Positions 19,032 to 31,318 of a stretch of 40,595 bases of DNA are shown here, one piece after another. The stretch comes from a virus. The notes beneath the pieces were generated by a model. It saw only the letters and a program-made list of their open reading frames with translations. It made no database searches and was not told the DNA's origin. The stretch spans positions 1-40,595 of IMG/VR virus record IMGVR_UViG_3300025131_000111, one strand, 5' to 3'. Position 1 is the first letter of the stretch; every line of letters starts with the position of its first letter. The position numbers and the translations under genes were made by a program.

Positions 19032-19961
19032 ATGACCAAATTCAACGAGAACAGAACATACGGGGTAGAGCTTGAAGTTCTTTTTAGCGGTACAAGACAA
19101 GACCTTGCCAATGCGATCAATCAAGAGTTCGCCAGCCAGAACATTTCCGCCTCTGCTTATGACGCAGGATACACCCACGCAGACAACAACCAGAACATCT
19201 GGAAAGTTGTTCATGATGGATCAGTTAGAAACGGATGGGAAGTAGTCAGCCCGATACTCAAAGGATTTGAGGGAAAGGCACAAATTGATGCAGTCTGCAA
19301 AGCTCTCCAAAATGTCGGATGCGACACTAACCGAACCACAGGGATGCACGTTCACCACCACGCCCTCGATCTCACTCCCAAGCAGATCGGACAAGCATTT
19401 GGAACATACGCCGCTTTCCAGACATTACTCGATTACAGCGTTTCCCCAAGCCGCAGGGGTTTCCAAACCTACACCACCCCAGTTCCCACAACTGTTACAA
19501 ATAACGGCGACGACAAATGGGACGATGTACAAACCCGACCACAAGCAATCCGCAAACTAGACACCACGAAAAGCAGTTCCCGATACTCCGCCATGAATCA
19601 CGATTCCCTGCGACAGGGGAGCCGACAGTACCACGGAACAATCGAGTTCCGACAACATCAGGGAACGACCAACGCTACAAAAATTTGGACTTGGATACTA
19701 GTTACCCAGTCAATCATTGAAAACGGGGTACAGAACAAAGCCCGATTCCCAAAGACACTTACCTCTGAAATGCAGAATGGCAAGATGCACGCCAAGGGAG
19801 ATTTCGTAAGATTCAAAAACTTCATCGGGATAACTGCCGAAACCAACGATGGAGACGCCGAAGCCAGCGAGCCTTACATGTGGGCATACAAGCAGATGAG
19901 AAAGACCATCAAAAAGTTTACCCAACGCGCCAATCTCGAGATAGACAATATCGGGAGATAA
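19032..19961 (+). CDS. Glutamine-synthetase-like amidoligase (Amidoligase_2 family)
   Basis: 309 residues, ATG after AAAGGAGATTTCAA. Family signatures in order: YGVELEVLF (residues 10-18, metal-binding Glu13 and Glu15), HDGS (61-64) and EVVSP (70-74), TGMHVHHH (103-110), and IEFRQHQGT (204-212). These are the COOH-NH2 ligase residues that bind ATP-Mg and the carboxylate. Such enzymes join a carboxylate to an amine. In phages comparative genomics links them to class-II glutaminases and predicts modification of peptides or other targets. A glutaminase is encoded at 21,603. It has its own promoter and its own terminator. The true substrate is unknown. Confidence 0.85.
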   Translation: MTKFNENRTYGVELEVLFSGTRQDLANAINQEFASQNISASAYDAGYTHADNNQNIWKVVHDGSVRNGWEVVSPILKGFEGKAQIDAVCKALQNVGCDTNRTTGMHVHHHALDLTPKQIGQAFGTYAAFQTLLDYSVSPSRRGFQTYTTPVPTTVTNNGDDKWDDVQTRPQAIRKLDTTKSSSRYSAMNHDSLRQGSRQYHGTIEFRQHQGTTNATKIWTWILVTQSIIENGVQNKARFPKTLTSEMQNGKMHAKGDFVRFKNFIGITAETNDGDAEASEPYMWAYKQMRKTIKKFTQRANLEIDNIGR

Positions 19962-19977
19962 TCGAAACGCTCCCACT

Positions 19978-20005
19978 AAAGCCCCCAGAAATGGGGGCTT
20001 TTTTT
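19978..20005 (+). terminator. Rho-independent terminator after the amidoligase gene
   Basis: AAAGCCCCC (19978-19986), loop AGAAAT, GGGGGCTTT, then a T-run to 20,005. Separates the amidoligase transcript from the ribozyme-bearing operon. The 15 bases before it (TAATCGAAACGCTCC) look like the opening of the type II hammerheads further downstream. Confidence 0.9.
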
Positions 20006-20162: not shown

Positions 20163-20191
20163 TTTACATCTAAGATAATTCCCTTTATAGT
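20163..20191 (+). promoter_or_regulatory. Early promoter P2
   Basis: -35 TTTACA (20163-20168), 17-base spacer, -10 TATAGT (20186-20191). Preceded by AAAAAGGG and followed by ttacatattgaaactat, matching P1 in 13 of 17 bases after the -10. It would start the transcript carrying the hammerheads at about 20,198. Confidence 0.75.
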
Positions 20192-20197
20192 TTACAT

Positions 20198-20383
20198 ATT
20201 GAAACTATTAGATGCACTAAACAAAAGCATCACAAACCCAAGGGACGACCGACTTAAGAGAGGCGAGCCCGACTGAGAAGAAACAAGAACCTCTACACGG
20301 AGACAGAACGGACAAGTCTCTCAGACATGAGAGGGGAAAAGATCGAGAGATCGGGGTACTCAGCAAAACGAGCGGGATGACCG
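20198..20383 (+). other. Structured 5' leader of the P2 transcript
   Basis: No ORF of note. Several short hairpins are visible: GATGC/GCATC (about 20,211-20,231), AGAGG/CCTCT, CTCTCA-gaca-TGAGAG, GATC-gaga-GATC, and GAGCGG-gatga-CCGCTC (20,370-20,386). The last shares bases 20,384-20,386 with stem III of the first hammerhead and so competes with it. Confidence 0.5.
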
Positions 20384-20442
20384 CTCAAGTCTAGCACTAA
20401 ACAATCGTGCTACTGATGAGCCGCAGAACGGCGAAACTAGGG
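20384..20442 (+). ncRNA. Hammerhead ribozyme 1 (type III)
   Basis: Core: UC at 20390-20391 (cut after 20391), CUGAUGA at 20413-20419, GAAA at 20433-20436. Stem I TAGCAC/GTGCTA (6 bp, 9-base loop). Stem II GCCG/CGGC with loop CAGAA. Stem III, open-ended, pairs CTCAAG (20384-20389) with CTAGGG (20437-20442): five pairs (one G-U) and one A-A mismatch. All invariant core bases are present. The 3' side of stem III overlaps the AGGGAG ribosome site of the next gene. Confidence 0.8.
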
Positions 20443-20451
20443 AGAACGGAT

Positions 20452-20691
20452 ATGAGTTCAGCAATCGAATTAAACAGCGTTTTTGACCAAGCAGAAGAAT
20501 TGGTTGGGACATCACCAAGCGGAATCGATCTTAGGAGTGCCATTCATGCGGTTATTACCAAAGGCGTGGACATGGATGAGAGAGTGAGTTTTTTCTACCG
20601 AAAGATTGGGTCCCGAAAATTTATGGATAACACGGAGTACCTCGCAAGAAATTACGAGACGATGAGGACAACGACCCAGACCATCGGTTAG
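20452..20691 (+). CDS. Unknown early protein (79 aa)
   Basis: Starts at ATG 20452 (MSSAIELNSVFDQAEEL), with GGGAGAACGGAT before it; a longer frame from 20,407 would run through the hammerhead core and is rejected. Small, mostly helical, charged; residues ~25-45 alternate (SGIDLRSAIHAVITKGVDMD). Not recognised. First gene of the ribozyme operon. The same GGAGAACGGA-ATGAG context precedes the next two genes. Its TAG stop overlaps stem II of the next hammerhead. Confidence 0.7.
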   Translation: MSSAIELNSVFDQAEELVGTSPSGIDLRSAIHAVITKGVDMDERVSFFYRKIGSRKFMDNTEYLARNYETMRTTTQTIG

Positions 20692-20745
20692 CCGAAACGC
20701 TCTACGGAGCGTCTGCAGGGATTTATCACCCTGTACTGACGAGGC
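20691..20745 (+). ncRNA. Hammerhead ribozyme 2 (type II)
   Basis: GAAA at 20694-20697; stem III CGCTC-TACG-GAGCG (5 bp, UACG tetraloop); UC at 20712-20713 (cut after 20713); stem I TGCAGGG/CCCTGTA (7 bp with one G-U, 8-base loop); CUGACGA at 20736-20742; stem II, open-ended, GCC (20691-20693) with GGC (20743-20745), extendable with a mismatch. Stems I and III are hairpins, hence type II. Every conserved core position is present. Its first base is the last base of the preceding stop codon. Confidence 0.9.
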
Positions 20746-20771
20746 AGATTCCTCAATTAAGGAGAACGGAG

Positions 20772-21056
20772 ATGAGTTATATACCAGAATTTTTAATGAG
20801 ACACGACAGGGAGATAATCGATACAGCGGTTGAATTAATAGATGGATGCTTTGAAACAGATACCATCATCAACGCCCTTCATGAGGCGTTAGTAGCTTTT
20901 ATGGGTAAAGGGGCAGAGGTTAGCGTATTTGAAGATCATTATGATGAAAATTTCGCAATGGGATACGTTGACCCATATAAAGATTACCTTGTATTTGAAC
21001 ACCTAACTGGTGAACGAATACCAACCGAAAAAGTATCCCTTTTCCCACGAAGCTAA
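20772..21056 (+). CDS. Unknown early protein (94 aa)
   Basis: ATG after AAGGAGAACGGAG. Begins MSYIPEFLMRHDREIIDTA; acidic, helical first half (DTAVELIDGCFETDTIINAL), then an aromatic acidic segment (FEDHYDENFAMGYVDPYKDY). Not recognised; no Cys cluster or membrane segment. It lies between hammerheads 2 and 3, so its mRNA would be released as a single-gene fragment. Confidence 0.7.
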   Translation: MSYIPEFLMRHDREIIDTAVELIDGCFETDTIINALHEALVAFMGKGAEVSVFEDHYDENFAMGYVDPYKDYLVFEHLTGERIPTEKVSLFPRS

Positions 21057-21058
21057 TA

Positions 21059-21114
21059 GCCGAAACCCTCGCAAGAGGGTCAGCGAGATTTTATCTACTC
21101 GCTCTGATGATGGC
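21059..21114 (+). ncRNA. Hammerhead ribozyme 3 (type II)
   Basis: GAAA at 21062-21065; stem III CCCTC-GCAA-GAGGG (5 bp, GNRA loop); UC at 21080-21081 (cut after 21081); stem I AGCGAG/CTCGCT (6 bp, 10-base loop); CUGAUGA at 21104-21110; stem II GCC (21059-21061) with GGC (21112-21114). A single U (21111) is extra between the core and stem II, which normally follows at once, so activity is less certain than for its neighbours. It begins two bases after the TAA of the preceding gene. Confidence 0.78.
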
Positions 21115-21144
21115 AGATACCATACGGATTAAAGGAGAACGGAG

Positions 21145-21522
21145 ATGAGTCACATAGGAAACGATGCAATCATAGATGCCCAGAGGGACGTTTGTACGGT
21201 ATGCGAAGGATTAGATGTAGATGTCTGCATCGCATGTGGAATATACGAGCCACACATACCAGAGTTAATGATGATGCACGGTAAATGCAACAGATGCGAC
21301 AAAAAAATATTTATTCGTTCAACGAATGACGGGCAACGCAAAACCCGCAACTGGAACGATTATTGGCGCACTCAATTCTACGGATTATTTGTAGGCGATG
21401 ATTGGAAGTTTATTCTCTCCCGTTGCTGTAATCGCAAAGTCAGGAGAGCAAGAACTTTCGGCGGTCATTGGACTGCGGATACAACAATGTCCCTAAGTGC
21501 AGGGAACACATATACGCACTAA
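21145..21522 (+). CDS. Cysteine-rich zinc protein (125 aa)
   Basis: ATG after AAAGGAGAACGGAG. Cys pairs: CTVC, CIAC, then CNRC, and a later CC (residues ~20-50 and ~95), the pattern of one or two zinc sites. The C-terminal half is basic and aromatic (NWNDYWRTQFYGLFVGDDWK, then CCNRKVRRARTFGGHW). Possibly nucleic-acid binding. Not recognised as a named family. Its stop TAA overlaps the first base of hammerhead 4. Confidence 0.7.
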   Translation: MSHIGNDAIIDAQRDVCTVCEGLDVDVCIACGIYEPHIPELMMMHGKCNRCDKKIFIRSTNDGQRKTRNWNDYWRTQFYGLFVGDDWKFILSRCCNRKVRRARTFGGHWTADTTMSLSAGNTYTH

Positions 21523-21578
21523 TCGAAACTCTCCTACGGGAGAGTCTGCGGGGATTGCCCACCCCGTACTGATGAGAT
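21522..21578 (+). ncRNA. Hammerhead ribozyme 4 (type II)
   Basis: GAAA at 21525-21528; stem III CTCTCC-TACG-GGAGAG (6 bp, UACG loop); UC at 21545-21546 (cut after 21546); stem I TGCGGGG/CCCCGTA (7 bp with one G-U, 8-base loop ATTGCCCA); CUGAUGA at 21569-21575; stem II ATC (21522-21524) with GAT (21576-21578). Stem sequences differ from ribozyme 2 with compensating changes (CGCTC/GAGCG against CTCTCC/GGAGAG; GCC/GGC against ATC/GAT), which supports selection on the fold. Confidence 0.9.
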
Positions 21579-21602
21579 AGGGCGAACTTAAAGGAGGCAC
21601 AT

Positions 21603-22481
21603 ATGTGCGGATTAGCAGGATTAGTGATTGGAAAAAAGAATAGGACAAAGGAGGATTTCGACAAGATCAGATCAGACTTTTCTGATTTGATGGTAGCGAC
21701 CCAAATCAGGGGGAGACACGCGACTGGAGCGTTTGTATTAGATACCAAAAGCGGTATCACATACTTCAAAGCTCCAGTACCCGCTGAAAAAATAGTCAAG
21801 ACCCAAGGATGGGCAGACCTACTCGATCTAATCGGAGAGGACACGGTAGCGATTGTCGGACACGTTCGATACGCAACGCACGGCAGTCCAGAGGAAAACT
21901 CAAATAACCACCCTATCGTCATGAACAATGTTATTGGCGTCCATAACGGGGTGATTAGCAACAATTGCGAATTATGCGACAAGTACCCGTATGAACAAGA
22001 AGTAGACTCTGCCGCTATATTTTCAACAATTGAGGCATATGCGAAAAAGTCCAGAGTATCTACCGAGAGCATCGCAAAAGCACTTCCTGAACTGGAAGGA
22101 AATTTCGCAATTATGCTGGCAGATAAGCGACGACCTAATTCCATATTCGTCGCAAGGGACGGCAGTCGCCCGATTGTCTATCATAAAGACAAGTCGGAAA
22201 AACTGCTCTGGCTTTCATCTACAGGGGAAATAATGCGGACTGGTCTGAAAGTATCAGTATTCCCTACAATGCTCCCTCCGTACTCTGTAGCACGCTTATC
22301 CGTCGCTCATGCGGGCAAAACAAGAATTAAAACGACAAGCTGGTGGGAAGCCCCGAAAATCAAAAAGATTTCCTACAAAGAACTTGCCGCAGAAGTTAAA
22401 GACCCGCAAGCGTTGGAAATATTCGCCAAACTCGATGCTTTGATGGAAGACGAGTACGCAGAGGAATCTGAATATGACTAA
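21603..22481 (+). CDS. Class-II glutamine amidotransferase (stand-alone glutaminase domain)
   Basis: 292 residues, ATG after AAAGGAGGCACAT. The Ntn-hydrolase signatures are complete: Cys2 as nucleophile (MCGLAG), RGRHATG (36-42), GHVRYATHG (86-94), NNHPI (101-105), HNGVISN (114-120) and DSAAIF. No synthetase (asparagine synthase, PurF or GlmS) domain follows, so it only frees ammonia from glutamine or passes an amide on to a partner. The amidoligase at 19,032 is the likely partner. The last gene behind a hammerhead; the next gene overlaps its end by 8 bases. Confidence 0.92.
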   Translation: MCGLAGLVIGKKNRTKEDFDKIRSDFSDLMVATQIRGRHATGAFVLDTKSGITYFKAPVPAEKIVKTQGWADLLDLIGEDTVAIVGHVRYATHGSPEENSNNHPIVMNNVIGVHNGVISNNCELCDKYPYEQEVDSAAIFSTIEAYAKKSRVSTESIAKALPELEGNFAIMLADKRRPNSIFVARDGSRPIVYHKDKSEKLLWLSSTGEIMRTGLKVSVFPTMLPPYSVARLSVAHAGKTRIKTTSWWEAPKIKKISYKELAAEVKDPQALEIFAKLDALMEDEYAEESEYD

Positions 22482-22779
22482 GCGGAAATGGTACTGCATA
22501 TGGGAATCTAAAAACGGTAACCGTTGCCCCCGTCAAATGAGACGGGGGTTTTACTGTAACCAACACGCAAAACCGATAAGAAGGGTAGAACTAAAGACCA
22601 AGCCCACAAAACGCTTTATCAAGCAGATGGAGCGGTTCGCTAAGAACCGAACGCTGTTTGATCTAACGCTCAAGGGCGATACATACAACGTGATTAATAA
22701 TCACATGTTTCAGAATGATAAGATGGTCTGCCACTTTTTCGATTTCGTCAGACGAGTAGGAGGCAACCCTAAAAGATGA
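22474..22779 (+). CDS. Basic Cys/His protein (101 aa)
   Basis: Starts inside the end of the glutaminase gene. N-terminal MTKRKWYCIWESKNGNRCPR, then GFYCNQHAKP: Cys-x9-Cys and Cys-x2-His, a likely zinc knuckle. Very basic in the middle (KTKPTKRFIKQMERFAKNR). Probably binds nucleic acid. Family not recognised. Confidence 0.65.
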   Translation: MTKRKWYCIWESKNGNRCPRQMRRGFYCNQHAKPIRRVELKTKPTKRFIKQMERFAKNRTLFDLTLKGDTYNVINNHMFQNDKMVCHFFDFVRRVGGNPKR

Positions 22780-22797
22780 GAGTACCGCAATTTATAA

Positions 22798-22823
22798 GAG
22801 TCCGCTGGTCACACCGCGGACTC
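22798..22823 (+). terminator. Hairpin between genes, possible weak terminator
   Basis: GAGTCCGC (22798-22805) and GCGGACTC (22816-22823) pair perfectly over 8 bp around a 10-base loop. A TTTTTT run follows 10 bases later, too far for a standard terminator. It lacks a hammerhead core. Confidence 0.5.
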
Positions 22824-22866
22824 ACAATTTACTTTTTTACAACCTGTCTTAAAAAGGAGAAATGAG

Positions 22867-23193
22867 ATGGATATCGTTTATGAATGGGATATTGAGGAAG
22901 TAGATTCCGAAACATTTGAGACTTTAGAACACGATCATAATTGGAGTCTAAAAGGATTATCACATTATGCCCTTACCTTGGGAGAGAATCCCGATATTTT
23001 CCATCGGTTGGTACTTGTTAGGGATGAGTTCAGAGGACACAATCGGGTTAATCGCTCATGGTGCTATGTGACCGACAGAGGAACCTTGCCAAAAACTACT
23101 GACAACGGCTATGAGATTCCTAAAAAATACAAAGCCGAGTTCGATAAAAACAAATCATGGGCTAGCAAGCTACGCAATAGGATTAGGAGTTAA
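22867..23193 (+). CDS. Unknown early protein (108 aa)
   Basis: ATG after AAAAAGGAGAAATGAG. Acidic N-terminus (VYEWDIEEVDSETFETLEHD), then HRLVLVRDEF and SWCYVTDRGTLP strands, and a basic C-terminus. Its mixed alpha/beta make-up is not tied to a named family. The next gene starts two bases after its stop, so they are coupled. Confidence 0.65.
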   Translation: MDIVYEWDIEEVDSETFETLEHDHNWSLKGLSHYALTLGENPDIFHRLVLVRDEFRGHNRVNRSWCYVTDRGTLPKTTDNGYEIPKKYKAEFDKNKSWASKLRNRIRS

Positions 23194-23195
23194 TC

Positions 23196-23477
23196 ATGGC
23201 GTTTATAAGCATACAAACTAAATTTTTAGGTCCCACCAATCACAGAGGTGACAGAATTAAAGCGACCTCTATGCAGGCATTTAGCGATGGTAGAAAACCT
23301 TCTGTCACTATTCCTTACGATTACGGAAGTACGAATGAAGAGAACCATCGGGACGCCGCTGAAAAACTATTGCCAGAAGTGGTGAATGAATATTCCCTTC
23401 CCAGCGTTGGGCTGATCGCAGGAGGGTGCGATACGGGATACATATTCACGCCAATATTCAAGTGTTCCCACATGTAA
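23196..23477 (+). CDS. Conserved small phage protein (93 aa)
   Basis: Begins MAFISIQTKFLGPTNHRGDR and continues RIKATSMQAF, TIPYDYG, ENHRDAAEKLL. This 'FISI-TK-LGPTN-RG-RIKA' opening with a later 'ENHR-AAEKL' helix occurs in many phage and plasmid genomes; its role is unknown to me. ATG after AGGAGTTAATC. Confidence 0.75.
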   Translation: MAFISIQTKFLGPTNHRGDRIKATSMQAFSDGRKPSVTIPYDYGSTNEENHRDAAEKLLPEVVNEYSLPSVGLIAGGCDTGYIFTPIFKCSHM

Positions 23478-23495
23478 GGAGTTAGGCTCAGAGCG

Positions 23496-23568
23496 GTAGG
23501 GGATGATGCGTTCCGCATATAGCACACTAAGCTATATCCGAAGATGGAACATCAATCTCATCCCTTAC
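23496..23568 (+). ncRNA. Cloverleaf-like structured RNA in a 5' leader
   Basis: An 11-bp closing stem (23496-23506 with 23558-23568, one G-U) encloses three hairpins: TGCG-TTC-CGCA (23507-23517), TATAGC/GCTATA with a 7-base loop (23518-23536), and GATG-GAA-CATC (23543-23553). No tRNA T-loop, CCA or D-loop signature was found, so it is not an ordinary tRNA. It lies 60 bases before the HTH gene start. Class not recognised. Confidence 0.6.
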
Positions 23569-23580
23569 GTCTCAATAAAT

Positions 23581-23600
23581 GCGATTGTCTGAGCAATCGC
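23581..23600 (+). promoter_or_regulatory. Leader hairpin before the HTH gene
   Basis: GCGATTG-TCTGAG-CAATCGC, a perfect 7-bp stem, 27 bases before the ATG and 16 before the AAGGAGG site. No U-run follows. With the structured RNA just upstream it makes the whole 23,478-23,627 leader a candidate control element. Confidence 0.55.
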
Positions 23601-23627
23601 CATCGACCACATTACAAGGAGGTATAT

Positions 23628-24650
23628 ATGTGGCACTCTTTAGAATCGCAGAACAAATTTTATGCAGACAAGTTAAGGAGGAAACTTTTGTCTATGCGAA
23701 TACCTCGCATTATCGAAAAGGCATACAAGTTAACAGAAATTCAGCATCTTGAATCCAGCGGGAAAACTTGGAAAGAAGTTGAGAAAGAGATAGGCAACTT
23801 CAGAACCAGAATTATTGCATCTTCTCACAAAGCCATGATGAATATTTCAGAGAATGAAATTCAAAGGCAGAGATGCAATATTGAAGTCACCACACAGCAC
23901 GTTAATAATCACAGACTCAAGTGTGATACTTGTTTGAAACTTGGCACAAAAAATCCCGTTACAAATCAAGCGGCTTCAATTACTCATCAATCTGCCGTCA
24001 CGCAAGAGAACGACACAGCGGCAATAGTTGCAGAGCAAGAGAACTCCGCGTCCCCAGTCAAGGTAACCAGAGTTACCAGAAGTTATACCGACGAGGAACG
24101 CAATCGGATTATGGCTGTCTTTGGTTCCAATAACTGGAACGTCAAACAAACATCAGAACAGATGGGCGTACCAGAGGGGACACTCAGAGACTGGGCGAAA
24201 AAGGCGGGCATTGTCTATAAGCAGTCACATCCGAACGCTAAAGAATTAAAACCATCCACAGAACTAAAAAGGGACAACAACTTGAAAAGAGCCTCGTTGG
24301 AAGATTCAGCATATTATTCAAAAGAGTTTAAGCAAAGAGTTATTGCCGATGCCCCCAATCATGAAAGTTGGAGACAACTTGCAGAAGCCCATGGCGTAGA
24401 CAATACAACTGTCACCGAGTGGATGAGACTAGAGCAAGAGAAGCCGAAAACGATTATGTCCTTTACTGATCTGATTCAACAGTTGGAAAACGCAGAAACG
24501 CAAGCGTACAAACTGGCAGAACGCTTAACAGACGAAGTTAAAGCGGCTCGCACGATTCAATCCAGCGTGGATGAACTATCTCAGAATGAAGCCAAGTTAC
24601 AATTTCTACTGAGTGAGAAACAACGGTTATTAAAACAAGCAGGACTATAG
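23628..24650 (+). CDS. Double-HTH DNA-binding protein
   Basis: 340 residues from ATG 23628, which has AAGGAGG nine bases upstream; the longer frame from 23,544 runs through the structured RNA and is rejected. A basic helical N-terminus has one Cys pair (CDTC, ~103). Two HTH units of the homeodomain/transposase type follow: ~152-197 (YTDEERNRIMAVF, then TSEQMGVPEGTLRDW) and ~232-275 (FKQRVIADA, then LAEAHGVDNTTVTEW). The C-terminal ~60 residues are a coiled coil. It may be a replication initiator or master regulator; it has no catalytic residues of a transposase. Confidence 0.72.
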   Translation: MWHSLESQNKFYADKLRRKLLSMRIPRIIEKAYKLTEIQHLESSGKTWKEVEKEIGNFRTRIIASSHKAMMNISENEIQRQRCNIEVTTQHVNNHRLKCDTCLKLGTKNPVTNQAASITHQSAVTQENDTAAIVAEQENSASPVKVTRVTRSYTDEERNRIMAVFGSNNWNVKQTSEQMGVPEGTLRDWAKKAGIVYKQSHPNAKELKPSTELKRDNNLKRASLEDSAYYSKEFKQRVIADAPNHESWRQLAEAHGVDNTTVTEWMRLEQEKPKTIMSFTDLIQQLENAETQAYKLAERLTDEVKAARTIQSSVDELSQNEAKLQFLLSEKQRLLKQAGL

Positions 24651-24659
24651 GAGGTTTTT

Positions 24660-25634
24660 ATGAGTCCAGCACCACAATTGAATATAGGGGTCGATGTTTC
24701 AGCGGCAATTAATTCAACTGAAGCCATCAATATGGCAGGGTTGAATTGGGAAGTCGGAGCATATGACACTTATTACAGAGGGGGAAGTGAGGAAGACTTA
24801 ACACTTGTTAAATCTAAAAAGTACCGCTCCATCGTGCGTAAAGATACGGGTGAAGAATTCGGGCATCCAACTAAAAGATACACACCCGTCCAGAACGCTG
24901 ACGCTTTTAAATGGTTAGACGATCTAACCGATGAGGGAGTTACATTCTGGAGGGCGGGTTCTTTCAGGGGAGGCAGGAAAGTTTTCATGATTGTTTCCTT
25001 GCCATCGCCGATTCATGTAAATGGCGATTTCGTAGAGCGGTCAATGATCGTCTCAACATCGCACGATTCAACATCGGGAGTAAGAGCGAACTGGCTCCCG
25101 ATCCGTATTGCTTGCGCAAATGTAATTAGCCTTGCACTTGCAACTGCTCCTCTGGCGTTTCGACATACCCAAGCAGTAACAGAGGGGATTGCATCAGAGC
25201 GAACCCGTGAGATGTTTTTAAATGCTGATAAGTATTTTAATAAATACCAAGAAACACTCTCACAGCTATCAGATACGGCTTTTAGTGATAACGATATGCT
25301 TTCCCTAGTGGAAACCGTATTTGAGTCTCCTAGACGCCCAGAGGCGGGTGTACGGCGTTCCAATGATTATCTCTATGACACGTTATTACAGATGTTCAGA
25401 AATGGGCGTCAAACATACGGGTCAACGAAGTGGGACGCATTTAATGCAGTCTGCGAATATGTGGATTATGCCCGACCAATCGGGAACACACTAGAAACCG
25501 CAGGAAGCGATGACCCACTTATCGTAAATGAAAGGCATTTCAATTCGGTTCTATCAACAAATAGATTTGGAGGCATAAAACTCAGGAATAAAGCGTTTGA
25601 GGCATTAACAGAACAGGAGGCAGTTTATGCTTAG
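24660..25634 (+). CDS. DUF932 phage/plasmid-like protein
   Basis: 324 residues, ATG after GGAGG. Order of features as in DUF932: an N-terminal start with INMAGLNWEVGAY, then YTPVQNADAFKWLDDL, the core FRGGRKVFMIVSLP and PIRIACANVISLALA, and a C-terminal helical part (AVCEYVDYARPIG). Length is in the family range. The family is common on phages and plasmids next to recombination and replication genes; its biochemical role is not settled. Overlaps the next gene by 8 bases. Confidence 0.88.
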   Translation: MSPAPQLNIGVDVSAAINSTEAINMAGLNWEVGAYDTYYRGGSEEDLTLVKSKKYRSIVRKDTGEEFGHPTKRYTPVQNADAFKWLDDLTDEGVTFWRAGSFRGGRKVFMIVSLPSPIHVNGDFVERSMIVSTSHDSTSGVRANWLPIRIACANVISLALATAPLAFRHTQAVTEGIASERTREMFLNADKYFNKYQETLSQLSDTAFSDNDMLSLVETVFESPRRPEAGVRRSNDYLYDTLLQMFRNGRQTYGSTKWDAFNAVCEYVDYARPIGNTLETAGSDDPLIVNERHFNSVLSTNRFGGIKLRNKAFEALTEQEAVYA

Positions 25635-26091
25635 TGAAACTTGGCAAGAATCCATGAAGGACTCTATTGATGGGATGCTAGACGGCGAATTGGTCGACTT
25701 CTATCAAGGGGTACAAAAAGAAGCATTAATGGCACAAGCCAAAATGCAATATGCGGAATTCTGCTTAACGGCAAGAATGTCAGAAAGCGGAGCATCAGAG
25801 ATGATGGGAGACATTAAAGACGGCAAAGCGTTGAAGGCAGTCAAGACTGCCAGAGCCGTTGAATGGGATTACTCTATACTTAACCAGTTGAAAGAGTATT
25901 TCCCACCCGAACAACTCACAGGCATATATACCCCAGAACATGAAAAGGCTATAACAGTCAAAGAAAAATGGAACATGAGTAAGGGCAAACTGCTTGCGAA
26001 ATTCGGGAAAGATCAGGCTCAGATTATCAACGACGCAAGAATTGAGAATCGGCACAAAATTGAAATAAAGGAGGTCAATTTTGACGAGTAA
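25627..26091 (+). CDS. Unknown helical protein (154 aa)
   Basis: Starts inside the DUF932 gene end (ATG 25627) and ends in TAA overlapping the next start. Helical throughout, acidic then basic (WDYSILNQLKEYFPPEQLTG, then AKFGKDQAQIINDARIENRH). Neighbours DUF932 in what looks like a recombination/replication unit. No motif recognised. Confidence 0.65.
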   Translation: MLSETWQESMKDSIDGMLDGELVDFYQGVQKEALMAQAKMQYAEFCLTARMSESGASEMMGDIKDGKALKAVKTARAVEWDYSILNQLKEYFPPEQLTGIYTPEHEKAITVKEKWNMSKGKLLAKFGKDQAQIINDARIENRHKIEIKEVNFDE

Positions 26092-26314
26092 TTACATTTG
26101 GAAGACAGCAACAGAAACGGCTGAAATCCTTGGAGTCAGCAGACAACGAGTCTGCTGGCTCGCTCGTAATGGACGTTTTGGAGAAAACGCATTTAAAAAG
26201 CATGACAAATCCATGAACTATAACGGGGCATGGATGATTGCTTTTCCTAACGAATACACAAAAATGTCTACAGGGCGACCAAGCAAGGACAGCTTTCATA
26301 TAGTAGAGTTGTAA
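26081..26314 (+). CDS. Xis/MerR-like HTH protein (77 aa, TTG start)
   Basis: Starts at TTG 26081, after GGAGG at 26071-26075. The winged-HTH entry is clear: WKTATETAEILGVSRQRVCW followed by LARNGRFGENAFKK and AWMIAFP, the layout of phage excisionase and AlpA-type binders. No integrase is present in this window, so a regulatory rather than excisionase role is likely. Confidence 0.72.
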   Translation: MTSNYIWKTATETAEILGVSRQRVCWLARNGRFGENAFKKHDKSMNYNGAWMIAFPNEYTKMSTGRPSKDSFHIVEL

Positions 26315-26352
26315 ATCCACAAAAAAATAGTTCCAAGATAAGGAGGTTTGTT

Positions 26353-27249
26353 TTGGAAACAACAGTAACGACACCGATTACGGTGCAAAATGTTCAAGAT
26401 GGGGGCTGGAAGTACACGATCACCGCAGAATGCACATGGGTATCAAGAGATTATCCAGTCAATCAAATATCAATGAACAAAAAACTTGGAGATTATCCCG
26501 AAATTGGGAAAACATATCTTTGTACCCTTGAACGGGGTAATCTCCGAAAGTATCAAGACGGTAGGGAAAAAGACGATTCAAAAACGTGGAACTGGTTTTG
26601 GGATATTGCAGTATTTGATATACAGCAAGATACCGCTCCCACAAACTACGCCAGCAAAGATGAAGTTCCGTATCCCGCTACGACTCAATCGAAGCCGTTT
26701 AATACTCAGAGCGATGTAAACCCTACTACCCGTCTGAATATAACCGCCTCGCACGTTAGAACTGCATTAATGCAGTCTGTCGAGATGGGAAAAGCTGACG
26801 GAATTGTCACAGATGCGACAGATATCATCCTTGAAAGATCAGATGAACTATTAAAGTATTTAAATGATCGCACCTTTGGCAGTTCTCCGTTAGTTGCGAA
26901 AGCAATAATGGAAGGGGCAACTGTTTCAGAAATCAGACCCAATACAGACCCGATCCCACAGCAAGAGATGCACACCCCGCCTTCTGCGGAGATGTACGCT
27001 GAGTTAATGCAGAACTGGAAAATACCCAACACTATCGCAAGCGGTAAAGACTTCAAGGAAGTTTGTATCTCTTGCGGGTTTGAGATGGAATGGGTAATGG
27101 AAAAATTCAGAGTTATGGGAATATCCAAGTCTGCTGATTATGTCAGCAGTGAACGTGGCAGTTATCAAGATTTGGCTATTATTCTTTGCTCGAAAGCAGT
27201 AACTGAAGGCATGACTCATCCCGACTCTAGTACCGCAGACACTTGGTAG
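26353..27249 (+). CDS. Unknown early protein (298 aa), possible ssDNA-binding role
   Basis: TTG start at 26353, preceded by AAGGAGG. The first ~95 residues are beta-rich and aromatic (GGWKYTITAECTWVSRDY, then KTYLCTLERGNL and WNWFWDIAVFD), compatible with an OB fold as in single-strand binding proteins. A disordered linker follows, then a helical C-terminal half. Position just before the helicase supports replication. This is inference; no clear family signature was seen. Confidence 0.55.
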   Translation: METTVTTPITVQNVQDGGWKYTITAECTWVSRDYPVNQISMNKKLGDYPEIGKTYLCTLERGNLRKYQDGREKDDSKTWNWFWDIAVFDIQQDTAPTNYASKDEVPYPATTQSKPFNTQSDVNPTTRLNITASHVRTALMQSVEMGKADGIVTDATDIILERSDELLKYLNDRTFGSSPLVAKAIMEGATVSEIRPNTDPIPQQEMHTPPSAEMYAELMQNWKIPNTIASGKDFKEVCISCGFEMEWVMEKFRVMGISKSADYVSSERGSYQDLAIILCSKAVTEGMTHPDSSTADTW

Positions 27250-27545
27250 AGCCTTTATTCTGTAACTCTACTGGATGCAATTTGCATGATTACAATGTGT
27301 CTCCCGCTTTCTGTGAATACGCTTGGTCGCAAGATCAAGCACAGAAACAGCGGGACACACAATTTAACTCCCAAGTTGAAGTAATTGAGCGAGTAACTGA
27401 AAACGTGTCTAGGAGACTCATAGAGGTGCTTTACGGCTTCTTTGAGTCTCGTAACACCGAACTGCCATCAGTCCCTTCAGATAGAGACGCAGAGACAACC
27501 CAAACCGCAAACAAGAAACCCAGAAAGGGAGGCATCTCGATTTGA
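27243..27545 (+). CDS. Unknown protein upstream of the helicase (100 aa)
   Basis: TTG start at 27243 overlapping the previous stop. N-terminal Cys residues (FCNSTGCNLHDY, then FCEY) may bind metal; a helix with VIERVTENVSRRLIEV follows and a basic tail (NKKPRKGGIS). It ends overlapping the helicase TTG. Could be a small helicase-loading or coupling protein, without direct evidence. Confidence 0.5.
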   Translation: MVEPLFCNSTGCNLHDYNVSPAFCEYAWSQDQAQKQRDTQFNSQVEVIERVTENVSRRLIEVLYGFFESRNTELPSVPSDRDAETTQTANKKPRKGGISI

Positions 27546-28828
27546 CCAACAATAACTATGAAATAGACTCACAACCCAATCCCCCTGATATGTCGGTGTC
27601 GGGAAGTATTTATCATCTCAAGTGGCAAGACAGAGGAATCCAGATGCGTGTTGAGAGATTTTACACAGACAGACACCATAACGTTGAGGCAGAGATAACG
27701 GTTGAAGTCTTAGGTAGCCCAGAGGGTGAGGGCTTAATCACCCGTGGTAGGCAAAAGCTATTATCAACATTTCGGACATTGATTGAGGACGCTGTTGATT
27801 TCGGTGGCGAACTGAACGACAAAGACGATTGGAAGATTATGTTTAAACAGATGAGTTCCAGAGTTCTTGATCGATATCGAATGGGCGAACCCATAATTAA
27901 TCTAGCCAAGATGGAAAGACAAACACCCAAGCCGTACTTATTGTCTCCATTCATATACGAAGGGGCAATCTCTTTGGTGTACGGTAAGGGCGGGGTAGGT
28001 AAGTCCCTCTTCTGTTTATATCTCGCTGTACTACTTCAGATGGGAAAAGACGATGGGCGACTTACAGCAAAAAAAGCAAACGTGGTTTATTTAGACTATG
28101 AAGCCGACCCAGATGAATCAAAGTACAGGGCAGATTCGATAATTCACGGATTAGAAGAGAATCCAGACGATGTAAACATTCACTACAGATACTGCTCTGT
28201 CCCGCTTAAATCCGACTTGGACGCTGTCCTACGCTACTGTTTGCAAGTAGAAGCGGACATGGTTTTGATAGACTCTGCCATTCCTGCTTGTGGCGGTGAT
28301 GTTACAGATGCTGGAAATGTTGGTGATTTCTTTAACGCTGTCAGGTCGCTTGGCAGTTCAGAGAACAAGATTGCCACATTGATAATCGGACACACTACAA
28401 AAGCACAAAACAACAGCGATGGTCCATTTGGTTCTGTGAACTGGAGAAATCAGCCGAGAACCGTTTGGGAGTTTAAGTCTAATCAGGTAGTTAACCAAGA
28501 CGAAATAGATGTTTCCTTAGTACACAGAAAGATTAACTTGGGCAAGCTACTTGCACCGTTAGCGTTTCGCATAACGTTTGGGCAACAACAAGTCAATTTT
28601 GAAGAACTAGATGCCCGAAGACATTCTACCTTTAGGGCAGATATGCCTATAGGAGACCAAATAGAAGTATTGCTTGAAGATCATGGCACATTGGAGTCTG
28701 AGCAGATAGGTCAGCGAATACAAGAGTCCACAGGGGCTAATCATTCAGACGTTATTCCAGAAGTGTTAATCCGAGACGCTCGATTTGTAGAAGTATCAGA
28801 AAACAGATGGGAGTTAAATGCGATATGA
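27542..28828 (+). CDS. RecA-fold helicase-like ATPase (RepA/AAA_25 type)
   Basis: 428 residues from TTG 27542, with AAGGGAGG upstream. Walker A GKGGVGKS at residues 148-155, acidic VYLDYEA at 183-189, Walker B DMVLIDSA with Asp244, then IIGHTTK (His284 sensor-like). The N-terminal ~135 residues are a separate beta/helical domain, and the C-terminal ~70 look like a winged helix (EVLLEDHGTLESEQIGQRIQ). This is the hexameric replicative helicase type of small plasmids and phages. No primase or polymerase is encoded here, so host enzymes would complete replication. Confidence 0.82.
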   Translation: MTNNNYEIDSQPNPPDMSVSGSIYHLKWQDRGIQMRVERFYTDRHHNVEAEITVEVLGSPEGEGLITRGRQKLLSTFRTLIEDAVDFGGELNDKDDWKIMFKQMSSRVLDRYRMGEPIINLAKMERQTPKPYLLSPFIYEGAISLVYGKGGVGKSLFCLYLAVLLQMGKDDGRLTAKKANVVYLDYEADPDESKYRADSIIHGLEENPDDVNIHYRYCSVPLKSDLDAVLRYCLQVEADMVLIDSAIPACGGDVTDAGNVGDFFNAVRSLGSSENKIATLIIGHTTKAQNNSDGPFGSVNWRNQPRTVWEFKSNQVVNQDEIDVSLVHRKINLGKLLAPLAFRITFGQQQVNFEELDARRHSTFRADMPIGDQIEVLLEDHGTLESEQIGQRIQESTGANHSDVIPEVLIRDARFVEVSENRWELNAI

Positions 28829-29211
28829 ACATTACACTCAAAACAAACGACGGCAGACCCGTTGCCGTTTACGAAACATTTAACAAGATTATCCGTAAGG
28901 AGGTGAACCAAAGAACTCATCAACTGAAATATCCACCAGCGTGGACATATGACGAGTCAATCATCAATCAGGTTCGCCGACTGTTTGCCAGCACTCATGT
29001 AGACCTTAGTGAAATAAGTGAAATTAAATTCATCATTGAATGTGTAGATACGGGCAAACAGTATGAAATCAGTTGGGAAGCGTTTGAGAAACATGCTACA
29101 AAGATGCCTTGGAGACAAAACCCAAGATATTTTCAGTTCCGCATCCCGCTAGAGTTCTGGAAAGAAACCGACCTAAACCGTAGACAGTTAAATATGTTTG
29201 AAGATATCTAA
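28825..29211 (+). CDS. Unknown last early gene (128 aa)
   Basis: ATG 28825 overlaps the helicase stop as ATGA. The sequence starts MNITLKTNDGRPVAVYETFN and ends with an acidic tail (LNMFEDI). It is alpha/beta with a WEAFEKHATKMPWRQ segment. Not recognised. Tight coupling suggests work with the helicase. It ends 10 bases before the convergent hairpin. Confidence 0.6.
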   Translation: MNITLKTNDGRPVAVYETFNKIIRKEVNQRTHQLKYPPAWTYDESIINQVRRLFASTHVDLSEISEIKFIIECVDTGKQYEISWEAFEKHATKMPWRQNPRYFQFRIPLEFWKETDLNRRQLNMFEDI

Positions 29212-29220
29212 TAATCGGGG

Positions 29221-29251
29221 GCGGGGATGTAGGGAGGTCTACATTCCCCGC
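29221..29251. terminator. Bidirectional hairpin at convergent operon ends
   Basis: GCGGGGATGTAG (29221-29232), loop ggaggt, CTACATTCCCCGC (29239-29251), pairing with one bulged base. It sits exactly where the rightward early and leftward late units meet, and the right arm contains the stop codon of the leftward gene at 29,239. There is no strong U-run on either side. Confidence 0.75.
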
Positions 29252-29472
29252 CTAGAGAAAAGGGAAAACGTACTTCTGAGGATTTGCTTTCCAGTCGAAA
29301 TTCTACTCCTGTTGCTTATAAATGCAAAGACTTTCGACCCGCAAGACTTACAGCTTCCCTTTATTACTAATCTATACTGCAACGCCCCAAGCCTACCTTC
29401 AGACGTCACAAGTTCCTTGCGCCCATTCATCAAAGATTGTTTCTTTTTGCATGAATTGCAATACCCACGCAT
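29239..29472 (-). CDS. Cys4 zinc-ribbon protein, DUF5679-like (77 aa)
   Basis: MRGYCNSCKKKQSLMNGRKE then a strand region and IKGSCKSCGSKVFAF: two Cys-x2-Cys pairs about 45 residues apart with the 'G-C-x2-CG' ending of DUF5679-type zinc ribbons. The rightward ORF over the same bases (29,198-29,512) has no such logic. Last gene of the leftward unit. Confidence 0.75.
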   Translation of the reverse strand: MRGYCNSCKKKQSLMNGRKELVTSEGRLGALQYRLVIKGSCKSCGSKVFAFISNRSRISTGKQILRSTFSLFSRRGM

Positions 29473-29476
29473 AGCC

Positions 29477-29653
29477 TTAACTGCTATCGCTCGTTATTAC
29501 ATCCTTGGATAATGCGATTATCCCTGCTCCCGCCACCCCTGCAATCTCAGACATCCCTTCATACATAGCAATGATTGCTATAACCCCCAATATAAGAATT
29601 GCCGTTAACACTTGCGGTCTTAAATGTATTATTTCCCACCATTTTCTAGGCAT
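29477..29653 (-). CDS. Small membrane protein (58 aa)
   Basis: ATG 29653, TAA 29479..29477. MPRKWWEIIHLRPQVLTAIL then ILGVIAIIAMYEG (one clear membrane helix at ~14-30), followed by a second hydrophobic Gly/Ala stretch (IAGVAGAGIIALSKDVI). Near the holin and other membrane genes; possibly a holin partner. Its ATG overlaps the stop of an 11-codon upstream frame (TAATG). Confidence 0.65.
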   Translation of the reverse strand: MPRKWWEIIHLRPQVLTAILILGVIAIIAMYEGMSEIAGVAGAGIIALSKDVITSDSS

Positions 29654-29688
29654 TAATACCTCGGCTTTTTCTTAGGCTTTTTAGGCAT
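29653..29688 (-). CDS. Possible 11-residue basic peptide
   Basis: ATG 29688 after AAAGGAAATCAA; reads MPKKPKKKPRY then TAA, which overlaps the next ATG. It has an orderly ribosome site and coupling at both ends, but so short a frame may only serve to reinitiate translation. Confidence 0.35.
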   Translation of the reverse strand: MPKKPKKKPRY

Positions 29689-29836
29689 TTGATTTCCTTT
29701 TATTTCTTAGACCTTCGCTGAATTCATCAAATAACTTTTCGGCATTTTGTTTATTGTGATTCTTTAGCCATAGAATAGTCTCCACGGCGCATAGAGCCGT
29801 TAAACCCACACTTGCTATAGCTAACCATACTTTCAT
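29681..29836 (-). CDS. Single-membrane-helix protein (51 aa)
   Basis: ATG 29836, one base after the holin stop. The start MKVWLAIASVGLTALCAVET is a hydrophobic helix, followed by a charged cytoplasmic or periplasmic tail (KNHNKQNAEKLFDEF, then NKRKSNA). The layout is like i-spanins or holin partners in lysis cassettes; without a paired outer protein this is only a suggestion. Confidence 0.6.
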   Translation of the reverse strand: MKVWLAIASVGLTALCAVETILWLKNHNKQNAEKLFDEFSEGLRNKRKSNA

Positions 29837-29837
29837 G

Positions 29838-30113
29838 TTAATTCTGACTTTTTCCGAATACACTTCCTGTTAATAAAGCACCGAAAGCCAGATGAAATAA
29901 CCCCCCGCCTTTTAATGTAAAAGGTTCATGCTGAGATACCAGTTTTTTTAAATATTCCATCTGTACTAAAGGGTCTTCAATCGCTTGTAGATGACTCATG
30001 TAATCTGCTAAATCCAATCCCATTCTCGCAACTCCGTAATAGATCGGAACAACCATAAAATCATATACGCAAATCACCAAGTAAACCAGTAAAGCCGTCC
30101 ACCGCCATCTCAT
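29838..30113 (-). CDS. 3-TM holin-like protein
   Basis: 91 residues. RWRWTALLVYLVICVYDFMV (helix 1), VPIYYGVARMG, a linker, then TLKGGGLFHLAFGALLTGSV (last helix). The 'GGGLFHLAFGALLTG' ending is typical of phage 3-TM holins. Lies in a run of membrane genes at the end of the late unit, the usual lysis location. It would make the inner-membrane lesion; no endolysin was identified in the window. Confidence 0.75.
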   Translation of the reverse strand: MRWRWTALLVYLVICVYDFMVVPIYYGVARMGLDLADYMSHLQAIEDPLVQMEYLKKLVSQHEPFTLKGGGLFHLAFGALLTGSVFGKSQN

Positions 30114-30117
30114 ATTA

Positions 30118-30993
30118 CTATCTTATAAATATTGGTCTCTCAACAATCCCATCTGTTACGTTATTCACGTTGACAGAACTATTGATGACAAAATCAGCGG
30201 TATCTATATTTCCATCATCCCCTACACTACTGTCGGAAATGGTAAAAGTTCCGATCTCGACATTATCAATATTGATTCCACCTATCCACGCTTTGACATT
30301 ATCTAAAGTGACTGACCCAATGATAACGTCACCAGTTCCTGCCGCTTGCGTTATTAGAATCCTGTCAACAGTCATATCCTCTGCTGTGTAGTTGGTAGCC
30401 CCTCTGGCAGAACCTACCGTTACGTTATTTGTGGCGTTGCTGACAGTAGCATCGAAAGTGTGACCCGCGACAAACACGTTCGGCGTGGCTTTTATTGAAT
30501 AGATTTCTGAAGCCGCTATATCAATGGAAGGGAACTCAGAGTTCTTAATGATCAATTCACCGATGATTATCGAGTCAGAGGTGCTTAATCCTTGAATGGC
30601 AAAAGCATCGGTTAACCCTGCCTTGCCAAGAGAAATGTTTGTCAGGACAATCTTGTCAATTCGGGTATCAGCCGCCGCATATATCTGAAGCGTTTGAGAT
30701 GCTACTTGAGGTGATTCTGGATCAACAAATCTTGCCCCGATTAATGAACCGTTTGTATAAGATGCGCCCGTCTGGGGAAACGTGATCTGAGATTCACCTG
30801 TATTGATTAGCAAAAACATTCCGGCAATAAATCCAAGAGCCACCGCACTCAACCCTCCTAAAATCAGCTTACCCCCACCAAGGTATATTCCATTTGGCAG
30901 AGGCAACTTGAACTTCCAGAAGTTAGGAATTTTGAACTTAAAATTGACAAAGCCGAAACTGAGACTTGGGACAGAGAATTTCTTATCCTTCAT
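30118..30993 (-). CDS. Membrane-anchored beta-rich protein (291 aa)
   Basis: Residues 1-35 are Phe/Lys/Pro-rich (FSVPSLSFGFVNFKFKIPNF), then one long membrane helix at about 45-65 (LSAVALGFIAGMFLLI). From ~70 on are repeating short strands with Ile-Val spacing (IDKIVLTNISLG, IIIGELIIKN, DVIIGSVTLDN, NIDNVEIGTFTISD), as in a beta-solenoid exposed outside the membrane. No enzyme motif or signal cleavage. Likely a phage-encoded surface or lysis-associated protein; function unknown. Confidence 0.6.
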   Translation of the reverse strand: MKDKKFSVPSLSFGFVNFKFKIPNFWKFKLPLPNGIYLGGGKLILGGLSAVALGFIAGMFLLINTGESQITFPQTGASYTNGSLIGARFVDPESPQVASQTLQIYAAADTRIDKIVLTNISLGKAGLTDAFAIQGLSTSDSIIIGELIIKNSEFPSIDIAASEIYSIKATPNVFVAGHTFDATVSNATNNVTVGSARGATNYTAEDMTVDRILITQAAGTGDVIIGSVTLDNVKAWIGGINIDNVEIGTFTISDSSVGDDGNIDTADFVINSSVNVNNVTDGIVERPIFIR

Positions 30994-31318
30994 TCTTGTT
31001 GCCTCCTACCTTTGAGATACCGCTCTTAATTTCATCAGCCATTAATCCGACAATGATTCCTGCCGCTGATGTTACAGGAACGCTAAAGATGGATAAAGCG
31101 AGCAAGATGACATCCATATGCGGTGCTACTTCTGCCGGTTTACTCGTAGTCTTCCAAACTATTAAAACTCCTAAAACTACGAAACTGAGGAACAAGGGTC
31201 CAAGCATGACGATTGTGAGAAACTGCCCACCTGTTAAGCTAGTCTTTGACGAAACCTCAAGTTCCGCTATCCTAGCCTTGGCTTCAACTAATTCCTCTTC
31301 AACCGTCTGTTCACTCAA
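30983..31318 (-). CDS. Coiled coil plus two-TM protein (111 aa)
   Basis: TTG start 31318 overlapping the previous stop as TTGA. Residues 5-25 are a Glu/Ala coiled coil (VEEELVEAKARIAELEV), residues ~32-54 a membrane helix (FLTIVMLGPLFLSFVVLGVL), residues ~70-95 a second one (ILLALSIFSVPVTSAAGIIV), then a basic tail. Holin/antiholin-like layout. Confidence 0.6.
   Translation of the reverse strand: MSEQTVEEELVEAKARIAELEVSSKTSLTGGQFLTIVMLGPLFLSFVVLGVLIVWKTTSKPAEVAPHMDVILLALSIFSVPVTSAAGIIVGLMADEIKSGISKVGGNKNEG

Follow-up and report, generated by a model that had tools for sequence, protein, structure and literature searches.

Four hammerhead ribozymes and a candidate circularly permuted pistol-like ribozyme in the early operon of a virus

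The early operon of the virus studied here carries four hammerhead ribozymes in its sense strand and a fifth element that looks like a circularly permuted pistol ribozyme, an arrangement best explained by an RNA of the whole operon that probably cuts itself into separate mRNAs with hairpin ends. We analysed positions 1 to 40,595 of IMG/VR record IMGVR_UViG_3300025131_000111 (40,595 nucleotides, hereafter the window). After the leader and its hammerhead, HHR1, the operon reads rightward as g1, HHR2, g2, HHR3, g3, HHR4, g4, g5, g6, g7, the pistol-like element and g8 (Table 1).

Table 1. Features of the early operon, with positions in the window and predicted cleavage sites.
Feature	Position	Strand	Predicted cut	Basis or remark
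Possible early promoter, TTTACA-17-TATAGT	20163..20191	+		Consensus scan 10/12, weak
Leader RNA element U1	20234..20386	+		Aligned to L126 and L140 leaders; hairpin 20370-20386 at end
HHR1, hammerhead type III	20384..20442	+	20391/20392	RF00008, descriptor
g1, 79 aa, no assigned function	20452..20691	+		ORF; homologues in L233, L268
HHR2, hammerhead type II	20690..20753	+	20713/20714	RF02276, model R1
g2, 94 aa, no assigned function	20772..21056	+		ORF
HHR3, hammerhead type II	21058..21122	+	21081/21082	RF02276, model R1
g3, 125 aa, no assigned function	21145..21522	+		ORF
HHR4, hammerhead type II	21521..21586	+	21546/21547	RF02276, relatives' copies
g4, glutamine amidotransferase-like, 292 aa	21603..22481	+		Pfam GATase_6, E 3.6e-15
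g5, 101 aa, no assigned function	22474..22779	+		ORF
Gap g5-g6: hairpin, then T-rich stretch	22780..22866	+		Sequence
g6, 108 aa, no assigned function	22867..23193	+		ORF
g7, 93 aa, no assigned function	23196..23477	+		ORF
Permuted pistol-like ribozyme candidate	23475..23610	+	23569/23570	Descriptor, pair counts, fold z, model R2
g8, HTH protein	23628..24650	+		HTH domains; start re-assigned to ATG 23628 behind AAGGAGG

A preliminary description of the window had placed four hammerheads in the sense strand, and Rfam and a descriptor scan agree with it on all four. The descriptor scan covered both strands of the window, required the core CUGANGA and GAAA, a UH and three stems, and yielded the same four hammerheads as Rfam and no others. 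Against Hammerhead_II (RF02276; gathering score 37), HHR2, HHR3 and HHR4 scored 44.0, 38.2 and 43.5 bits. The covariance scan proposed earlier therefore gave matches above threshold for the three type II copies, but not for the type III copy HHR1, which reached 38.4 bits (E 4.7e-6) against Hammerhead_3 (RF00008), below the gathering score of 48.5. When the whole window was dinucleotide-shuffled 100 times, no type II, no type III and one type I pattern appeared. The covariance model R1, built from 30 hammerheads exclusively from other contigs, gave the three type II copies 52.8-61.5 bits (HHR2 61.5, HHR3 52.8), with E values from 1e-13 to 2e-16.

The cleavage triplet is GUC in all four hammerheads, in keeping with the NUH rule, and each has the CUGANGA and GAAA core with three stems around it by the descriptor; the cut positions given in the preliminary description coincide to the base with those predicted here. 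HHR2, HHR3 and HHR4 share the type II layout, in which loops cap stems I and III while stem II is open. Loop I pairs with the 3' tail in a pseudoknot, of 5 bp in HHR3 (UAUCU/AGAUA) and 6 bp in HHR4 (UUGCCC/GGGCGA, a sequence unlike that of HHR3), with just 3 pairs in the usual register in HHR2. The earlier spans were correctly placed and ended a few bases short on the 3' side of the type II copies, as they left out the pseudoknot strand. Stem III of HHR1 is short and interrupted (3 bp, A.A, 3 bp), and HHR3 has an additional U at the base of stem II, separating A9 from that stem. The same extra U (CUGAUGA-U-GGC) is common to three type II hammerheads, at 21104-21114 in the window and at L222:1500-1604 and L222:1976-2063 (-). 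It thus recurs in both copies of the related virus L143 (L222), which marks it as a recurring variant and not a single error.

For 19 type II hammerheads, one of them from the window, 20 pairs were compared, counting the pseudoknot: 96.6% of cells were paired, 16 of the pairs showed two-sided changes, and none of 500 shuffles was equally good. This bears out the earlier observation that stem sequences differ while pairing is kept, though conservation of pairs is not in itself proof of catalysis. We considered whether the elements persist simply as hairpins that stabilise the mRNA or act as spacers, with catalysis incidental or lost. The local hairpins of stems I and III dominate the predicted folds, and HHR1 and HHR3 are flawed copies, as such an account would allow. 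Plain hairpins, however, need no core, and the core bases are fixed while the stems vary; the tertiary pseudoknot is also kept, and unrelated ribozyme classes replace one another in the same gap, as described below. Retention as simple hairpins is therefore unlikely.

The fifth element, in the gap after g7, was missed by the preliminary description, which counted four ribozymes and was right as far as the hammerheads go. It comprises P2 (GAG/CUC), the core UUAGGCUCAGAGCGG, a long P3 hairpin and a GU at which cleavage is predicted by homology. Its P1 hairpin (GCGAUUG-UCUGAG-CAAUCGC), the loop of which pairs with CUCAGA of the core, lies 3' of the predicted cut and not 5' as in pistol, which amounts to a circular permutation. 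A search that asked for a pistol core and, upstream or downstream of it, a matching P1 hairpin gave eight distinct permuted sequences: one in the window, two in L091/L126 and one each in L132, L140, L233, L262 and L268, all from viruses that share genes with the window virus. With shuffled flanks, 0.17 permuted arrangements were expected against the eight observed, in 8/8 of which P1 is 3'; for canonical pistols, the same test gave 11 observed against 0.05 expected. The permuted copies have the core UUAgGC..AGAGCG, P2, P3 and the GU before the 3' strand of P2, with A replacing the G before the cut in two of the eight.

None of the 23 pairs is lost in any of the eight permuted sequences (window copy included), and 10 of them show two-sided changes. 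The pseudoknot is complete (6/6 pairs in 8/8 sequences), with two-sided changes at three positions. As full loop-core pairing was itself a search criterion, the evidential weight lies with the two-sided changes and the shuffled-flank control. The fold z of the window element is -4.6. The L268 copy scored 42.0 bits against RF02679 (cut-off 34.5), and Rfam at E 1 over 22400-31000 gave no match, the window copy included, so copies in which parts have moved or P3 is long escape the Rfam pistol model. A second model, R2, gave the window copy 81.6 bits, having been built from these same eight sequences, and on the loci searched it found no new copy, only weak matches to canonical pistols. Pistol matches in L126 and L132 were not accepted as canonical: upstream of the core there is no P1 with a suitable loop, and the fitting hairpin lies downstream. 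An A-rich segment follows P1 in most copies, those of L126 and L268 among them, and is absent from the window copy; in one L091/L126 copy it reads AUAAAUA, which is the canonical joining segment, still 3' of P1. A conserved branched insert, GAUGCGUUCCGCAUA...UAUCCGAAGAUGGAACAUCAA, stands in the P3 hairpin at 23505-23555, L233:2757-2807 and L262:3965-4015. Judged from its sequence, the element at 23475-23610 is a candidate permuted pistol-like ribozyme.

The preliminary description proposed to look for the array in related phage contigs, and ribozymes are indeed present in the early-region gaps of terminase relatives with the same early region. The gaps of L126 hold one type II hammerhead and two permuted pistols, those of L140 two type II hammerheads and one permuted pistol, and those of L143 two type II hammerheads. 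The gaps of the L132 operon (620-2000, -) contain, in turn, a type I hammerhead (32.5 bits, cut-off 34), a weak twister-P5 match and a permuted pistol. Hammerhead I, twister-P5 and pistol models all have matches in the gaps of relatives besides L233; those to twister-P5, in L132, L131 and L158, reach only 26-30 bits (cut-off 37.6) and are not relied on.

Two comparisons place these ribozymes at orthologous sites. L126 and L140 carry orthologues of HHR4 immediately ahead of the amidotransferase gene, with proteins 57-62% identical. The core of these ribozymes is unchanged, so that the loss of core bases without compensation that the preliminary description had in mind did not occur here, and their stems are altered with pairing kept, including a C-G to G-C change in L140 at the pair adjoining the cut. 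In L233, a type III hammerhead (2434-2497, 31.0 bits against RF00008) stands directly before a g1 homologue of about 50% identity, and a permuted pistol, the core of which contains that gene's stop codon, stands after it. The type III hammerhead thus precedes g1 in both viruses, whereas the gap after g1 holds type II HHR2 in the window and a permuted pistol in L233. The ribozyme class has changed at one orthologous gap, and from this swap it appears that self-cleavage itself is selected, not a particular fold.

These comparisons also bear on a reading in which recombination or duplication has carried the ribozymes from gap to gap as drifting, near-neutral or selfish insertions of little use to the virus. 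Ribozymes are very common in phage contigs, and neighbouring copies with near-identical stem I and loop, as if duplicated, occur in L095 (2860/3325) and L013 (6853/7137). Against this stand the conservation of HHR4 at one gap across such protein divergence, the type III copy kept before g1, and the late strand of the window, in which neither Rfam nor the descriptor scan found a ribozyme. We regard such insertions as quite improbable. The reading we lean towards, with slightly less assurance than for self-cleavage of the operon RNA, is that a natural permuted pistol occurs in one virus group beside hammerheads, that any of several folds can fill a gap, and that the cut is what is selected, often leaving a hairpin on both new mRNA ends.

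Such arrays are not unique to the window. Among the matches listed for the type II hammerhead pattern in IMG/VR there are many arrays, with at least 11 copies in L030, at least eight in L015 and at least six in L016, and a type III with at least four type II copies in L007. The eleven type II matches in L030:2814-6749 (-) fall within less than 4 kb, mostly 250-400 bases apart. For 151 distinct IMG/VR type II hammerheads, at loci picked by sequence and so not a frequency survey, 88% have both a gene end just upstream and a Shine-Dalgarno sequence with a start just downstream, a context found at 15% of random places.

The elements are closely fitted to the genes of the operon. The g1 stop codon (TAG) lies at the 5' end of HHR2 and that of g3 (TAA) at the 5' end of HHR4, while the g2 stop ends one base ahead of the HHR3 match; with stop codons overlapping ribozymes, a terminating ribosome may delay their folding. 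A likely ribosome-binding site is present 3' of each ribozyme. The preliminary description had assigned one ribozyme to each gap. Six wide gaps precede g8, and five of them do carry one, counting the pistol-like candidate; in the sixth (22780-22866), Rfam scans at E<=1 gave no ribozyme match. No further known ribozyme was found at E<=1 in the other gaps of the window. Sub-threshold Rfam matches to Phe_leader and whalefall-1 near the region, which overlap a terminator and HHR4, were set aside as chance. Promoter-like sites in the region show no excess (9, against 8.2 in shuffles), and a protein-family search with g2 gave no match.

Upstream of the operon, a terminator-like hairpin (19978-20001) closes the amidoligase gene; this gene (19032-19961) and the glutamine amidotransferase gene (21603-22481) also lie close together in L126, L140 and L139. 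Elsewhere in the window, near-identical plus-strand ORF translations at 41-323 and 32847-33126 suggest that a stretch opposite tail-fibre-like genes is repeated. The terminase is 63% identical to one in an uncultured Chloroflexi metagenome-assembled genome, a mere hint of a Chloroflexi host.

The leader holds further conserved RNA. U1 recurs in L126:5282-5446 (-) and L140:6055-6260 (-), conserved as AACCCAAGGGACGACCGACUU.AGAGAGGCGAGCCCGA ... CGAGCGGGAUGACCGCUC; it matches no Rfam family and is possibly an antitermination or regulatory RNA. A second conserved element, found among the relatives in L126 and L140 only (L126:5115-5153 (-), L140:5955-6003 (-)), lies 3' of U1, where the window has HHR1. 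It reads GCAACGGAUAACCGCUAAGUUGGCAACUGACGGUCUGARGAUAAAGCCA in L126, its 5' stem covaries between the two contigs (GCAACGGAU, GUAACGGCU), and it could be a further ribozyme. Exact patterns for either element turned up no contig beyond L126 and L140, and nothing more than a 26-base match (E 0.2) came from a distant phage search.

Hammerhead and pistol ribozymes cleave to give a 2',3'-cyclic phosphate on one side of the cut and a 5'-OH on the other, and decay pathways that begin at a 5' monophosphate act poorly on a 5'-OH end. In the mechanism we propose, the early operon would be transcribed as one RNA and cut by its own four hammerheads and permuted pistol-like element. There would be as many as five cuts, one in the leader and one in each of the gaps that follow g1, g2, g3 and g7. 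The products would be mRNAs of one gene or a short block, each with its own ribosome-binding site. A type II cut would leave stem III as a hairpin at the 3' end of the upstream mRNA, terminated by a 2',3'-cyclic phosphate, and stem I as a hairpin at the 5'-OH end of the downstream mRNA. The permuted pistol cut would leave P3 at the end of the upstream RNA and P1 on the downstream RNA, while the type III cut would discard the leader in which it lies, and the g1 mRNA would retain stems I and II. With a hairpin on both ends and a 5'-OH, the pieces would be expected to be stabilised and uncoupled, the hairpin ends slowing 5'-end-dependent and 3' decay and separating the fates of neighbouring genes.

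Cutting into single-gene mRNAs with 5'-OH ends, as the preliminary description suggested, is the most economical reading of the sequence; this processing would presumably be RNase-independent, alter mRNA stability and benefit the virus. Processing would not be complete, as no ribozyme was recognised in the gap between g5 and g6, and since the type I hammerhead in the L132 gap would leave no downstream hairpin, two hairpins per cut are at most a tendency.

Cleavage could also serve another end, in which the fragments with 5'-OH and 2',3'-cyclic phosphate are joined (e.g. by RtcB) into circular or spliced RNAs, and successive cuts would indeed free gene-length pieces with joinable ends. The separate ribosome-binding site on each piece instead fits linear mRNA, and Perreault et al., who sought spliced and circular products, found none (PMC3088659), so we think joining improbable here and retain processing into separate mRNAs as the preferred reading.

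The hammerhead array itself is already known in kind. The preliminary description took it to be undescribed, but Perreault et al. (2011) reported clustered prophage hammerheads flanking single genes or gene blocks, proposed the same role in mRNA processing, observed cleavage in vitro and in E. coli, and stated the purpose of a triple array as unknown (PMC3088659). The operon described here shares with those arrays several sense-strand ribozymes in one phage operon and the type II loop I-tail pseudoknot. It differs in having four hammerheads in a row with a permuted pistol, and in having relatives that carry other ribozyme classes in the gaps, once at an orthologous gap; the novelty lies in the permuted pistol and this class swap. 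Weinberg et al. (2015), as summarised in PMC10085705, found different classes close to the same phage genes as well as to one another, whereas the swap here is at one orthologous gap between related viruses. The purpose of phage and bacterial hammerheads has been a question since 2011, and this operon, taken with relatives that exchange classes at the same gap, isolates the property that appears to be selected, namely that the RNA cuts itself between genes. Its four hammerheads and permuted pistol candidate make it a compact test bed.

The pistol ribozyme (RF02679; PMC4604425) and the permuted copies have in common the UUAgGC..AGAGCG core, P2, P3, GU at the cut and pairing between the P1 loop and the core. 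In the window, by contrast, P1 is 3' of the core and would stay on the downstream RNA. An engineered circularly permuted pistol (Mustafina et al., 2021, ACS Synth Biol, cited in PMC10201423) is, going by its title, likewise permuted but built as a synthetic scaffold. A natural one was not found in the literature searched, mostly outside subscription journals, and the element is likely, though not proven, to be novel. Only hammerhead and twister have been named as naturally circularly permuted self-cleaving ribozymes (PMC10085705, 2023), and the pistol, if the permutation is true, would join them as a third class with natural circular permutations.
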